DNA of 41,332 bases, taken from IMG/VR virus record IMGVR_UViG_3300024520_000174, positions 1 to 41,332 of that record; one strand, 5' to 3'. Positions 17,340 to 20,896 of the stretch are shown here, one piece after another. Each line of letters starts with the position of its first letter. The first letter of the stretch is position 1. Under the pieces are notes generated by a model. It saw only the letters and a list, made by a program, of their open reading frames with translations. It ran no database searches and was not told the DNA's origin. The stretch comes from a virus. The position numbers were made by a program, and so were the translations under genes.

Positions 17340-17420
17340 GTAAAGGATAAAATACTTTGATACATTCTTAGCATTCGTCACGCTATAAAGAGCCAGTTCT
17401 AACAACGCTGGCTCTTTTTT
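17340..17420 (+). ncRNA. putative ~80-nt untranslated RNA (unit 1)
   Basis: This is the interval between the predicted start downstream of TACATTFG-like box TACATTTG and the end of the T-run at 17420. It contains no credible open reading frame and no tRNA cloverleaf. Its 3' end is the 9-10 pair hairpin at 17387-17420, and the last two bases touch the stop codon of the opposing gene. It is inferred to be a small phage RNA transcribed against the surrounding - strand genes. The function is unknown, and expression is not shown by sequence alone. Confidence 0.4.
17387..17420. terminator. intrinsic terminator (bidirectional)
   Basis: AAAGAGCCAG (17387-17396) pairs with CTGGCTCTTT (17408-17417), loop of 11, followed by TTT to give six Ts on the + strand. 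On the - strand the same stem directly follows the TAA of the 17419-17712 gene and is followed by TTTAT, so it can serve both directions; the + strand T-run is better. Confidence 0.75.
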
Positions 17421-17712
17421 ATGGTGTTTCCTGTACTTGTGCAACTATTTTAGTCCACCCTTTTTCCGGGTTCTTTCTTATAATAGCGTACTTCTCATTG
17501 TTATTTGCTCCACAAGCAGTATACTTTTTAGAGATCTCGAAGAACAATGCAACTAATTCATCTGCTGTGTAAGTAATTTCTGTATACTCTACAAGTTCTG
17601 TAGCTAATGATTCAAAGCTGTGCTGAGCAATAACAGGTTGTCCTGCACATTCTTGTAGAGGATCCTGATGCCAGAGGAACTGTTCTTCTATTGTTAAGGT
17701 TTCTGTAGCCAT
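17419..17712 (-). CDS. small acidic protein, unknown
   Basis: 97 residues, acidic N-terminus (ATETLTIEEQFLWHQDPLQE) and a helical middle (YTADELVALFFEISKKYTA), with a C-terminal strand-like part (KYAIIRKNPEKGWTKIVAQV). There is no membrane span and no recognised motif. The ATG follows the AT-rich leader ATAAAAATC. The stop abuts the hairpin at 17387-17420. No good promoter is visible on its strand; the 162-base gap upstream holds an opposing transcription unit instead. Confidence 0.65.
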   Translation of the reverse strand: MATETLTIEEQFLWHQDPLQECAGQPVIAQHSFESLATELVEYTEITYTADELVALFFEISKKYTACGANNNEKYAIIRKNPEKGWTKIVAQVQETP

Positions 17713-17838: not shown

Positions 17839-17844
17839 AGTTTT

Positions 17845-17872
17845 GTCCAGTTTATTATCGAATTAACTGGAC
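17845..17872. repeat. 28-base dyad, copy 1
   Basis: GTCCAGTT, 12 bases, AACTGGAC. Arms are perfect inverted repeats of 8. It is 25/28 identical to the copy at 18417-18444. It begins 2 bases past the TAA of the 17875-18063 gene. It could be an operator-like dyad or an RNA hairpin. Confidence 0.7.
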
Positions 17873-17874
17873 AT

Positions 17875-18063
17875 TTACAAGAATAAAAATACCCATATTA
17901 AAATGTTACATAGTACTATAACTTTTAAAAAGGGCACTCTACCAAAAAATATATCAAATCCCCAGATCATCCATAACCATTCTTTTATTCCTATTGGATC
18001 ATTTGGAACTTTTAGTCGCAAAATTTTCCAATTTTTATTGTAATAATTTTTATTAACTTTCAT
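17875..18063 (-). CDS. small membrane protein of the early array
   Basis: 62 residues: a basic N-terminus (KVNKNYYNKNWKILRLK), an aromatic amphipathic stretch (IKEWLWMIWGFDIFFG) and a C-terminal membrane span (FLKVIVLCNILIWVFLFL). No family is recognised. The leader is a variant of the array motif (AAACTGTAAAT, then ten more bases before ATG). A small inner-membrane protein of this kind may act on the host envelope or exclude other phages, but this is only inference. Confidence 0.6.
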   Translation of the reverse strand: MKVNKNYYNKNWKILRLKVPNDPIGIKEWLWMIWGFDIFFGRVPFLKVIVLCNILIWVFLFL

Positions 18064-18082
18064 AATATTTAGTATTTACAGT

Positions 18083-18265
18083 TTATTTAGATTGTCTTTT
18101 AAAAATAAAAGTGTGGTTAGCAAATTCGTGTACATTATCCCTAAAGTTCTTTGATATGATATACACCAATTCCCAACCCTCTTTTCCTTTTTTGTTTAAA
18201 TACGTTTCCATATGTGAAAGATTTACTTCGTGAACTCCTTTATATTCAGTTTTATATTCCCACAT
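18083..18265 (-). CDS. DUF4177-like small protein
   Basis: 60 residues from the ATG at 18265, which lies in an exact ACTGTAATTATG. A longer frame to 18322 exists but would start inside the preceding gene without a leader. The sequence WEYKTEYKG, then YLNKKGKEGWELVYII and a final FIFKRQSK matches the plan of DUF4177 proteins (EYK strand, G-x-EGWELV turn, strand ending in FKR). Those are small proteins of unknown biochemical role. The gene starts 2 bases after the stop of the previous cassette. Confidence 0.7.
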   Translation of the reverse strand: MWEYKTEYKGVHEVNLSHMETYLNKKGKEGWELVYIISKNFRDNVHEFANHTFIFKRQSK

Positions 18266-18267
18266 AA

Positions 18268-18387
18268 TTACAGTATTAATGATAGTATTGATATAATTCC
18301 TATTACGATTGTAACCATACAACCACCACCACCAACTTTTTTATATCTTCTATTTTTCGCCTGTTTAGGACTTAATGATTTTTCCAT
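18268..18387 (-). CDS. 39-residue membrane protein of the early array
   Basis: The N-terminus is basic (EKSLSPKQAKNRRYKK), then GGGGC and one membrane span (MVTIVIGIISILSLIL) that runs to the end. The last codons, CTG TAA, are part of the ACTGTAATTATG of the next gene, so the C-terminal Leu-stop is dictated by the motif. Its own leader is a variant, ACTGTAATAATC before ATG. Too short for family assignment; supported by frame, leader and spacing. Confidence 0.55.
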   Translation of the reverse strand: MEKSLSPKQAKNRRYKKVGGGGCMVTIVIGIISILSLIL

Positions 18388-18416
18388 GATTATTACAGTT
18401 TTAAAATTATTCTTTT

Positions 18417-18444
18417 GTCCAGTTTTTTAACTAATTAACTGGAC
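18417..18444. repeat. 28-base dyad, copy 2
   Basis: GTCCAGTT, 12 bases, AACTGGAC, with 9 of the 12 central bases equal to copy 1 at 17845. It is preceded by TTTT as in copy 1 and again lies 3 bases past a stop codon (gene 18448-18573). On the + strand it is followed by TTTTT. Confidence 0.7.
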
Positions 18445-18447
18445 TTT

Positions 18448-18573
18448 TTAACAAATACTTGCACCACAATCTTTCTTACAAGGACTGTGTTTCAATACAA
18501 TATGTCGCCAACATCTTTTTTTAGCAAATTCTACCGTTACTCTTTTTTTGTAGTAGGTGAAATATTTTCTCAT
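18448..18573 (-). CDS. 41-residue basic, Cys-rich protein of the early array
   Basis: MRKYFTYYKKRVTVEFAKK followed by RCWRHIVLKH and SPCKKDCGASIC. Four Cys and two His lie in the last 22 residues, so a small metal-binding knuckle is possible. It starts in an exact ACTGTAATTATG and is followed by dyad copy 2. No family is recognised. The basic charge would suit nucleic acid binding, but nothing shows this directly. Confidence 0.55.
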   Translation of the reverse strand: MRKYFTYYKKRVTVEFAKKRCWRHIVLKHSPCKKDCGASIC

Positions 18574-18582
18574 AATTACAGT

Positions 18583-18666
18583 TTATTTGATTGTTGTTTT
18601 ATCGTCTGTTGTGGTATGATAATCTTCATACATCGTGAATTGCTCTATTTCTGGGAAATATGTCAT
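18583..18666 (-). CDS. 27-residue peptide of the early array
   Basis: MTYFPEIEQFTMYEDY then HTTTDDKTTIK, acidic and soluble. It is supported only by the exact ACTGTAATTATG at its start and by its stop placed 9 bases before the next ATG, as in other cassettes. It could be a real micro-peptide or a cassette remnant. Confidence 0.45.
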   Translation of the reverse strand: MTYFPEIEQFTMYEDYHTTTDDKTTIK

Positions 18667-18677
18667 AATTACAGTAT

Positions 18678-18757
18678 TTAGTCACATCCCTATCACATAG
18701 GTTTTGTGAGTGAATTTTCTCTATTTTACTCGCTTAGTCACATTACAGTCACATAAG
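18678..18757. repeat. pair of 24-base direct repeats in the array's only non-coding gap
   Basis: 18678-18701 and 18734-18757 share TTAGTCACAT, five variable bases and TCACATA (19 of 24 identical, 56 bases apart). On the - strand the same gap holds two unused copies of the ACTGTAAT leader, each leading to ATG followed at once by TGA. The 95-base gap 18667-18761 has no coding frame. Confidence 0.6.
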
Positions 18758-18761
18758 AATA

Positions 18762-18884
18762 TTACAGTTTTAAGTTATCTTTTATATCAGCCATAAATAG
18801 AATTACCTTATTTCTCAACTGATAATATTTTCTATATTTCCTATCTCTTTTTGCTCGTTCTTTCCACTTATTAGCAGTTTCCAT
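18762..18884 (-). CDS. 40-residue highly basic peptide of the early array
   Basis: METANKWKERAKRDRKYRKY then YQLRNKVILFMADIKDNLKL. Strongly basic helical N-terminal half, no Cys. It starts in an exact ACTGTAATTATG and ends with Leu-TAA formed by the following, decayed leader. It may bind nucleic acid or a host protein; no family is recognised. Confidence 0.5.
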   Translation of the reverse strand: METANKWKERAKRDRKYRKYYQLRNKVILFMADIKDNLKL

Positions 18885-18886
18885 AA

Positions 18887-19048
18887 TTACAGTTTAAAGT
18901 TAATAATTCCTTCTATTATTTTACAATGTCTAATCGGATGCCAACTCATTGCTGCACCCCACGATTTAGTCGGTAAAACATCATTACCACTTATTTTTTT
19001 TGCTATAAATATTCTACCTAAATAAAAATACATTTGTCCTTTCTTCAT
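18887..19048 (-). CDS. 53-residue protein of the early array
   Basis: Start taken at the ATG at 19048 inside an exact ACTGTAATTATG, 2 bases after the previous stop. A frame extending to 19126 would overlap the previous gene by 76 bases. Sequence: MKKGQMYFYLGRIFIAKK, then SWGAAMSWHPIRHCKIIEGI and a final NFKL. Aromatic, with an SWHPIRHC segment that could bind a metal ion. No known family. Confidence 0.55.
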   Translation of the reverse strand: MKKGQMYFYLGRIFIAKKISGNDVLPTKSWGAAMSWHPIRHCKIIEGIINFKL

Positions 19049-19050
19049 AA

Positions 19051-19191
19051 TTACAGTATTAATGTTATTATCATTATAGTTGCAACGCAAAACATCACTC
19101 CTATTATAAATCCATAGGTAAACCATTTTGCATTTAATTTTCTTCTAGTATTCCGAATAGCTTTGTCAATTATATTTACATCGTTTCCCAT
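19051..19191 (-). CDS. 46-residue single-span membrane protein of the early array
   Basis: A basic N-terminus (NDVNIIDKAIRNTRRKLNAK) is followed by one long membrane span (FTYGFIIGVMFCVATIMIIT) reaching the C-terminus. By the positive-inside rule the N-terminus would be cytoplasmic. It starts in an exact ACTGTAATTATG; its last codons CTG TAA belong to the next motif. No family; the plan matches the 39-residue protein at 18268-18387. Confidence 0.55.
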   Translation of the reverse strand: MGNDVNIIDKAIRNTRRKLNAKWFTYGFIIGVMFCVATIMIITLIL

Positions 19192-19200
19192 AATTACAGT

Positions 19201-19503
19201 TTATTTATATTTTGGTTTAAAAAATTCTATTGCTTTATGAAAATAAGACCAACTTACATACAAGAAATAATACTTGTTAGAAAAAAGTGTTAGCCATAAA
19301 TTATCAAATGAGTAATTAATCTCTTTTTTACCCATATCATATTCCCTATAATCTTTATTGGTTCTTAAATTACTTCTGTACGCTATTGAAATTTCTAACA
19401 GAGTTAATCCTTTAAACGTATATTGATAATCAAAAGACTTAAATAATGCTTTTTCTTTCACTCCTGTTTTAAATTCATTATTGTAATAACTCCACGTTCT
19501 CAT
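19201..19503 (-). CDS. 100-residue soluble protein of the early array
   Basis: The largest member of the ACTGTAATTATG group. Tyr/Phe/Lys-rich (YNNEFKTGVKEKALFKSFDY, then YNSFDN-like and WLTLFSNKYYFLYVSW stretches), no clear membrane span and no recognised motif. It lies 2 bases after the preceding stop, in an exact ACTGTAATTATG. Its own TAA precedes the next ACTGTAATTATG directly. Probably an early phage protein of unknown action. Confidence 0.6.
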   Translation of the reverse strand: MRTWSYYNNEFKTGVKEKALFKSFDYQYTFKGLTLLEISIAYRSNLRTNKDYREYDMGKKEINYSFDNLWLTLFSNKYYFLYVSWSYFHKAIEFFKPKYK

Positions 19504-19505
19504 AA

Positions 19506-19646
19506 TTACAGTTTTAGGTGTTTTTTATAATCTTCAAAATTTTCATATTTCCATTTTTCTTGTACAAAATCATTAAATCCATTTGGCATACCTGAATATG
19601 ACCTACCACTATTAAAAGCGTTTTTTAAATCTTGTTCTGTTATCAT
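19506..19646 (-). CDS. 46-residue protein of the early array
   Basis: MITEQDLKNAFNSGRSYSGM followed by PNGFNDFVQEKWKYENFEDY and KKHLKL. Acidic to neutral, probably helical. The leader is a one-base variant (GTGTAATTATG). The stop codon is embedded in the next exact motif (CTG TAA TT ATG). The 'F..F....W.YENF.DYKKHL' ending resembles small phage proteins of unknown function. Confidence 0.55.
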   Translation of the reverse strand: MITEQDLKNAFNSGRSYSGMPNGFNDFVQEKWKYENFEDYKKHLKL

Positions 19647-19653
19647 AATTACA

Positions 19654-19950
19654 CTAATTTTGTATTAATAATTTTCCTTTTTCAGTAATTTCAAAAGTAG
19701 AAATGCTAATATGGTTGCCGTTTTCATCCCACCTTGACCTTTTTGCCAATCCTAATATTTCGAGTTTAGATAAATAACTTCCTCCACACAACCAGCCCGC
19801 TTTACCTCTGGTAGCCCCATTTCCTTGATTTGACACTTTTTTATGCATATTACTATCAGTCCACATTCTTAATGCAAAATCTCTTGCTGAAACCTGTCTT
19901 TTACTTGCTAAAATTTCAAGTGCTTTTCTCTGTTTTGTCGTAATTTCCAT
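19654..19950 (-). CDS. winged-helix-like small protein
   Basis: 98 residues. TTKQRKALEILASKRQVSAR followed by DFALRMW suggests helices of a helix-turn-helix. Then GNGATRGKAGWLCGGSYLSK and LEILGLAKR resemble the recognition helix, and STFEITEKGKLLIQ the wing and last helix of a winged-helix fold ('..GL......G....YEIT..G'). It could be a regulator of the array or a host-directed DNA-binding protein. The leader is the variant ACTGTAGAATATG. Assignment is from pattern only. Confidence 0.6.
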   Translation of the reverse strand: MEITTKQRKALEILASKRQVSARDFALRMWTDSNMHKKVSNQGNGATRGKAGWLCGGSYLSKLEILGLAKRSRWDENGNHISISTFEITEKGKLLIQN

Positions 19951-19960
19951 ATTCTACAGT

Positions 19961-20176
19961 TTAATAAGAATGTGCATTTTGTGCGTTATCAATAGCTCGT
20001 TTTAATTGCTCAGCTAAAACAGTATATGTTTTACCATTCATTTCAACATTAACAAACTCTTTCCTATTCCAATGATTTGTAATTCTTATTTTAGGTCTTT
20101 CAGAACTAAGTCCTTTAGTTTCTGTTCCGTCAACTTCGTAAGTGTCAACCATGTTTATTGTTTCAAATTTGTTCAT
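19961..20176 (-). CDS. 71-residue small protein, unknown
   Basis: Beta-rich sequence: FETINMVDTYEVDGTETKGL, then KIRITNHWNRKEFVNVEMNG and KTYTVLAEQLKRAIDNAQNA. The alternating strand pattern with 'NGKTYTV.A..L..AI..A' at the end looks like a small beta-sheet plus helix domain. No family is recognised. The leader (AAATTTAAAGAAT before ATG) does not carry the array motif, so this marks the upstream border of the motif-bearing genes. Confidence 0.6.
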   Translation of the reverse strand: MNKFETINMVDTYEVDGTETKGLSSERPKIRITNHWNRKEFVNVEMNGKTYTVLAEQLKRAIDNAQNAHSY

Positions 20177-20195: not shown

Positions 20196-20276
20196 TTAAT
20201 ATTTTAAAAATTCTTCTCTGTTAGAGTAGTCAATACTACAATCTGTAGCATAATTATACGGTATATTTTCTTTCAT
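20196..20276 (-). CDS. 26-residue peptide
   Basis: MKENIPYNYATDCSIDYSNR followed by EEFLKY. It lies between the nuclease gene and the 71-residue gene with an AT-rich leader (AACATACTTATT before ATG). It is supported only by frame and spacing. Confidence 0.35.
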   Translation of the reverse strand: MKENIPYNYATDCSIDYSNREEFLKY

Positions 20277-20308: not shown

Positions 20309-20896
20309 TCAGTTTAACCAATTATCAATAGGTAATGCATTCCAATTTTTAATGCTTTTTGCTGTAAAGGTTTTGTCTGTAAAGAAATACCTTGTAGGTG
20401 TAAAGGTTCTCATCCAAAGATATGGGCCTTCTGCTTTAAACTTTCCTTTTTTAGTTTTACCCATAGGGTAGTTGTATACTTTATTTACATACAGTGCCAT
20501 TTTTTCCCATACCCATTTTTGTTTTACTCTAAAAGATGCATCTGAAGTATTTCGACCTCCGTAACCTGGTGGAGCTTTAACCTCTACTAATGAAAAGTAT
20601 TTTTCTGTTGTAGGTTCTTGATGTGCTATAAAATAAGTACCTTCAAATTGATCCATTGTAGACCAAATCTTATTCCATCCTTTTTGAGTCCACCATAGAA
20701 CCCTGTCAGGTTTATAGGTGATTGATTCAAGTATAACATAATTTCTTCCTTTAGCAGATTTAACTATTTTTTCGAAAAGTTTAATTACTCCATAATCTAC
20801 AGGAGTATCAACTCTTTCAATGAAACCGGCTTCTATCATTTCCTGACACCAGAAATCAAACCATTCTTCTTGTGTAGGATTATTTAATTTTTTCAT
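20309..20896 (-). CDS. PD-(D/E)XK nuclease, DUF1064-like
   Basis: 195 residues from the ATG in the TAATG overlap at 20896; a TTG at 20908 is in frame but less likely. The core reads ITYKPDRVLWW (Asp ~64), then FSLVEVKAPPG (Glu ~105, Lys ~107) and FRVKQKWVWEKM, which is the order of the PD-(D/E)XK fold. The spacing and the 'F..K.K..' helix resemble DUF1064 phage nucleases, thought to resolve or trim DNA. The N-terminal ~45 residues (TQEEWFDFWCQEMIEAGFIE) are helical. As part of the replication operon it may be a Holliday junction or flap nuclease; it could also act with the two modification-type genes upstream. Confidence 0.6.
   Translation of the reverse strand: MKKLNNPTQEEWFDFWCQEMIEAGFIERVDTPVDYGVIKLFEKIVKSAKGRNYVILESITYKPDRVLWWTQKGWNKIWSTMDQFEGTYFIAHQEPTTEKYFSLVEVKAPPGYGGRNTSDASFRVKQKWVWEKMALYVNKVYNYPMGKTKKGKFKAEGPYLWMRTFTPTRYFFTDKTFTAKSIKNWNALPIDNWLN

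Follow-up and report, generated by a model that had tools for sequence, protein, structure and literature searches.

What does a short sequence do that stands, nearly letter for letter, at the start of one small and unrelated gene after another? The question is raised by a block of ~2.4-2.5 kb on the minus strand of an incomplete phage record, in which about a dozen mini-genes are packed from ~20176 (perhaps 20276) down to 17875. The record holds 41 of about 95 kb, the capsid region lying outside the window, by which we mean the whole stretch of DNA analysed (41,332 nucleotides). The leader shared by these genes is probably a common start (and stop) signal for mini-proteins. The reading argued for here, to which we give a probability of roughly 0.5, is that it resembles the start-associated sequences (SAS) of certain mycobacteriophages, with a role in translation initiation and coupling, while doubling as the joint between gene cassettes.

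A repeated leader and the genes behind it

Seven perfect copies of ACTGTAATTATG are found in the 41,332-base record, every one of them on the minus strand at 18263-19512, and neither strand has it anywhere else; a second-order Markov model predicts 0.012 copies for the minus strand and 0.006 for the plus strand (~0.02 in total). The ATG of every copy opens a reading frame, of 60, 41, 27, 40, 53, 46 and 100 aa, and four more genes start behind the variants AGTGTAATTATG (19646), ACTGTAGAATATG (19950), ACTGTAATAATCATG (18387) and ACTGTAAATACTAAATATTATG (18063). That all 11 array frames should be open has a joint chance of ~1e-27 in sequence of the same composition, so the genes are taken as real despite their tiny size, and the repetition of the leader is real and well outside chance. 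The scan of the whole record thus bears out the count of seven exact leaders and four variants at gene starts given by the first-pass annotation. Finding the motif away from start codons had been named in advance as an outcome that would speak against the idea, and no exact copy lies away from one. In the variant leaders the distance from core to ATG ranges from 9 to 19 nt, which counts against a rigid initiation element and shows that what is conserved at the joint is the core AAACTGTA(A/G), not strictly a 12-mer.

Followed in the direction of transcription, the array opens with a 71-aa gene (19961-20176) behind the degenerate leader ATTGTAAAATTTAAAGAAT-ATG, unless a possible 26-aa gene without the motif (20196-20276) is its first member. 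The lower end of the array, 17875, is the one first proposed; the upper end reaches beyond the 19950 first assigned to it. Next come a 98-aa gene (19654-19950; ACTGTAGAAT-ATG) with a winged-helix look, judged from sequence, and a 46-aa gene (19506-19646) whose leader AGTGTAATTATG carries one mismatch. Exact leaders precede the 100-aa gene (19201-19503; leader 19501-19512), for which no relatives were found, a second 46-aa gene with a hydrophobic C-terminal stretch (19051-19191; 19189-19200), a 53-aa gene (18887-19048; 19046-19057) and a basic 40-aa gene (18762-18884; 18882-18893). After these lies a segment without a gene (18676-18768), followed by a 27-aa gene (18583-18666; exact leader 18664-18675), a basic 41-aa gene with four Cys (18448-18573; exact leader 18571-18582) and a stem-loop (18417-18444). 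The array closes with a 39-aa gene with a hydrophobic C-terminus (18268-18387; ACTGTAATAATC-ATG), a 60-aa gene (18083-18265; exact leader 18263-18274), a 62-aa gene hydrophobic in its C-terminal half (17875-18063; ACTGTAAATACTAAATATT-ATG) and a second stem-loop (17845-17872). At the gene-less joint a motif copy, ACTGTAATATTCTTATGTGA at ~18768, has no proper gene behind it: the degenerate sequence ACTGTAATATTCTTATG-TGA, with an ATG directly followed by TGA, runs into TGTGACT repeats, and the segment may be an emptied cassette.

Stops and starts are interlocked along the array. At 9 of the 11 joints the upstream stop lies inside the motif, as CTG-TAA, or touches it. Five genes (both 46-aa genes and those of 53, 40 and 39 aa) end on the TAA of the motif itself, confirming what had been described for several cassettes, and four of these five ends leave two bases ahead of the next ATG. 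At five others the stop, TAA or TAG, abuts the beginning of the motif or runs slightly into it; the TAA stops of the 100-aa and 27-aa genes touch the next motif. Both the 27-aa and the 39-aa gene have the leader with no gene abutting them, so it is independent of an adjacent stop.

The two stem-loops, GTCCAGTT-N12-AACTGGAC, are 28-nt inverted repeats unique in the record; they stand past the 41-aa and 62-aa genes and fold well (z -4.3 and -6.3), and an Rfam search gave no match. The regions around them (17841-17885 and 18413-18457) are 82% identical over 45 nt and have no T-run on the transcribed strand, and they might divide the operon or stabilise its RNA. Such a layout invites the thought that the motif is a processing site at which a polycistronic message is cut between cistrons, since it stands at cistron boundaries, including ends without a following gene, and the stem-loops divide the array; yet a cut inside the leader would strip the next gene of its ribosome landing site, and no nuclease candidate was identified, leaving this explanation very unlikely.

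The genes between the joints are mutually unrelated. Similarity between flanks stops sharply at the core and the 8 A/T-rich bases preceding it, and further out pairs of flanks are no more alike than chance (P(max) 0.31 upstream beyond -8 and 0.17 downstream). This suggests that the joint itself is under constraint and speaks against recent segmental duplication, which was rejected for want of significant flanking similarity. The encoded proteins are orphans apart from the 60-aa product, which matches the DUF4177/Sp36-like family PF13783 at 26.9 bits (cut-off 25; NF053529 falls below its cut-off), and the 98-aa protein, whose single relative lies in a virus contig of 180 kb. None of the others belongs to a named family, three tiny proteins searched against phage records had no matches, and PADLOC, mainly a defence library, had none for ten array proteins; the suggestion of a host-takeover or anti-defence locus is therefore unsupported. 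As a separate observation, the 53-aa protein is similar over 24 residues to the C-terminal end of the conserved 195-aa product of 20309-20896 (37.5%; E 6e-4, the database being tiny) and is perhaps a captured fragment of it.

A variable site in a probably crAss-like genome

By its replication genes the phage appears to be crAss-like. A DNA polymerase search returned six virus contigs, one of which (L140) is nearly the same sequence as the window, although it does not include the array region. Three contigs have the same replication genes, G002 and G004 (94-95 kb) and the shorter G003 (34 kb); their DNA polymerases are 55-67% identical to that of the window. The capsid protein of G002 best matches crAss-like phages, at 38-39% identity, with portal and terminase families matching too. 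Three relatives span the array site, and a further search with a four-sequence alignment returned the same three; the PAPS-reductase relatives (L128-L133) proved to be other phages without the array.

The site is bounded by the 195-aa gene (20309-20896, ATG start) and a 97-aa gene (17419-17712), both on the minus strand and both with homologues in all three relatives. There the two lie 20 to about 510 bp apart, with one 133-aa gene between them in G002; here the distance is 2.6 kb. The relatives lack the array and, bar one single-mismatch copy in G003, the motif, so genes and leaders came or went together, and small genes kept by relatives without the motif, the other outcome named in advance as adverse, are not what is seen. 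That the neighbouring genes lack the leader holds, as none lies outside the array, but they do not share its base composition as had been stated (28.1% GC in the array, 33-38% in flanking genes). The array is best explained as a hypervariable insertion of ~2.5 kb with which the replication operon of this apparently crAss-like phage ends on its 3' side, and the proposal of a modular array with the leader as common joint is supported; cassettes would have been added or lost at that joint.

A joint of this kind could also be all that the leader is. On that account it is a recombination joint or relic of cassette expansion, copied repeatedly as new small genes were captured and serving just adequately as a start. 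The 2.5-kb insertion missing from three relatives and its deviant composition (28% GC) fit such a history, as do a Sak4-like annealing protein encoded by the phage and joints without a gene, both at ~18768 and in a second virus. A first scan for two-copy patterns found none, and a second found, among virus contigs, only G011, a virus with phage structural genes that carries a two-gene version of the array with leaders ACTGTAATTATG and ACTGTAGTTATG and a terminal copy, ACTGTAGG, behind which there is no gene. These gene-less copies, one in the window and one in G011, weigh against the translation-start explanation. Against the relic stand the unrelated genes between joints, whose flanks have no significant similarity past the core and the A/T-rich 8 nt: amid such full divergence the leaders would hardly stay identical unless the copying were very recent. 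We regard the relic as possible though unlikely. The G011 mini-array (L033/L171, at ~82.8-83.7 kb of its contig) is preceded by a stretch of ~300 bp that is itself flanked by inverted copies of a AATAATTTATAAAAAGGG-like sequence. A match in genome contigs (L172), a GC-richer intergenic repeat near a putative TetR-type regulator and efflux transporter identified by eye, is unrelated.

The array occupies the promoter-distal end of the replication operon and not a recognised early region, a position that bears on whether each copy might be a promoter yielding short or leaderless mRNAs, read by a crAss-like virion RNA polymerase or a phage-modified polymerase. The variable 9-19 nt between core and ATG would be accounted for in this way. 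Moreover, a virion polymerase that crAss-like phages bring with them serves their early genes (PMC8375218), and giant genes are present in G002. However, promoters of a virion polymerase should be common to the relatives, which, with DNA polymerases as close as 55-67%, are without the motif in all of their sequence that was covered, and the array follows same-strand replication genes. None of the joints has the host-type -7 box TAnnTTTG, whose single minus-strand occurrence from 17.3 to 20.4 kb falls inside the 98-aa gene, and neither host-type nor sigma-70 promoters are enriched at the joints. A promoter at each copy thus seems highly improbable.

Two start contexts in one phage

The array leaders can be compared with 25 other starts of the same phage, which have A at -13 in 19 cases, at -6 in 17 and at -3 in 17, and no Shine-Dalgarno sequence. 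This is the pattern of Flavobacterium johnsoniae, in which A-12/-13, A-6 and A-3 have been measured as determinants of initiation (PMC6847099), and the match supports a Bacteroidota host. The eight best array leaders are identical at -9 and from -7 to -1 (8/8), with C-8 in seven. Like the Kozak-like start of Bacteroidota, the leader ACTGTAATT has A-3, upstream A-richness and no AGGAG or other Shine-Dalgarno sequence; it differs in its invariant G-6, T-7 and T-5 and its nearly invariant C-8. The Bacteroidota combination of A at -3, -6 and -12/-13 is present in the phage's other genes and broken in the array leader by G-6, found in all eight where the other starts prefer A. A G fixed where A is preferred means that the array leader is not simply the optimum of the ordinary start signal, and it constitutes a second, distinct start context within one genome. 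In predicted mRNA accessibility the array starts are no different from those of other genes (0.57 unpaired in the array, 0.58 elsewhere), a point against the initiation reading.

It might nonetheless be held that the leader is simply a strong ribosome-start context preferred by the host and selected gene by gene, given the A at -3 and the A-rich stretch from -9 to -13, as in Flavobacterium. This is improbable, as the phage prefers A at -6 in its 25 other starts and fixes none of C-8, T-7 and G-6 there, and in other virus contigs the motif is not enriched at starts above AATTATG: the 14-mer AAACTGTAATTATG lies at a gene start in 15 of 102 cases, compared with 80 of 456 for AATTATG. The 120 loci with the exact motif across virus contigs are likewise nearly all due to chance. 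The leader is not a general signal but particular to this phage and G011.

The preferred reading, a SAS-like sequence acting at initiation, would work as follows. Each joint would carry a start-associated sequence with the core AAACTGTAAT(T)-ATG. The genes would be translated from one polycistronic mRNA in which the motif holds a stop codon and the next start follows 2-9 nt on, with ribosomes terminating and re-initiating. The fixed non-Shine-Dalgarno context, C-8 T-7 G-6 T-5 before A-4 A-3, would separate the array from the A-rich starts, and the simplest reason for such a context would be a common trans-acting factor, either an RNA or an RNA-binding protein of phage or host, by which the gene set would be switched together. 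The idea that the array has its own way of initiating translation is thus plausible and fits the contrast with the phage's other starts. More tentative, and on balance doubtful, is a specific form of it, in which the phage of a Shine-Dalgarno-free host encodes a factor that reads ACUGUAAUU-AUG and so switches the translation of an exchangeable array of mini-genes as a second start class.

Comparison with known leader systems

A survey of about 140 contigs and genomes for identical leaders, with mycobacteriophage TM4 as control, recovered the SAS of TM4 (9 starts, as GATAGGAGC), this window (6 starts by the survey rule) and an unrelated virus, L110 (IMGVR_UViG_3300032324_000566, 387-2588). In L110 seven genes of 39-75 aa each stand behind an identical GGAGGTAACAAATG, a perfect Shine-Dalgarno leader (AAAGGAGGTAACAAATG), and upstream stops (TAA or ATGA) fall inside the leader; some joints there have a longer common repeat ending in CGAAACATACGGAGGTAACAAATG. 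The layout therefore recurs, once with a perfect Shine-Dalgarno sequence and once, in this array, without, and its presence in both the TM4 SAS and the L110 leader points to an element placed in the ribosome-binding position. Elsewhere, presumed-early small genes of G004 (L162, ~27-34 kb) often have AACACAC-rich leaders, possibly another genome-specific leader, and in the second half of the crAss-like phage cr118_1 (L196) TTATCAAAG stands just ahead of several starts, perhaps by chance.

Leader repeats such as these can point out real genes of 27-60 aa, a size class routinely missed in annotation, and a 2.4-kb array is small enough for simple reporter tests. They also bear on a question that has stayed open since 2011, the function of SAS, partly because the Shine-Dalgarno core confuses the issue; where the same arrangement occurs in a phage with Shine-Dalgarno-free starts, any effect of the fixed bases has another source.

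Other phages place repeated signals near small or early genes. The operators of the T4 repressor RegA are A+U-rich, lie across the AUG of many early mRNAs or immediately before it, are bound by one protein and sometimes include the upstream UAA (PMC3014915). They resemble the array leaders in their position at the AUG and in the contained upstream stop, but are only loosely similar among themselves. In the PeSL (promoter early stem-loop) cassettes of T4-type phages, a repeated control sequence is tied to the shuffling of small orphan genes and consists of an early promoter and stem-loop within the intergenic space, whereas in the array it is the very context of the start codon that repeats.

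The closest likeness is to the SAS of cluster K mycobacteriophages such as TM4 and Adephagia, a short asymmetric repeat just ahead of the starts of many unrelated non-structural genes, which has one orientation, sometimes holds the upstream stop codon and is rare outside cluster K. Its role was unknown in 2011 and still described as 'not known' in the cluster K phage literature of 2024. Shared with the array is the near-identical short repeat directly upstream of many unrelated starts (seven exact and four variant copies here). The SAS, however, contains a Shine-Dalgarno core (AGGAG) within the 13-bp GGGATAGGAGCCC, neither of which the array leader has, and is scattered over half of a genome, in most cases ahead of genes separated by >50 bp, whereas in the array the ATG is part of the repeat and the genes abut one another within a single 2.4-kb block. 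The extended SAS, 17-bp imperfect inverted repeats upstream of about half of the SAS genes, has no counterpart at the array leaders, the stem-loops here following gene ends instead. On this comparison, the leader is best read as a start-associated sequence like that of cluster K.
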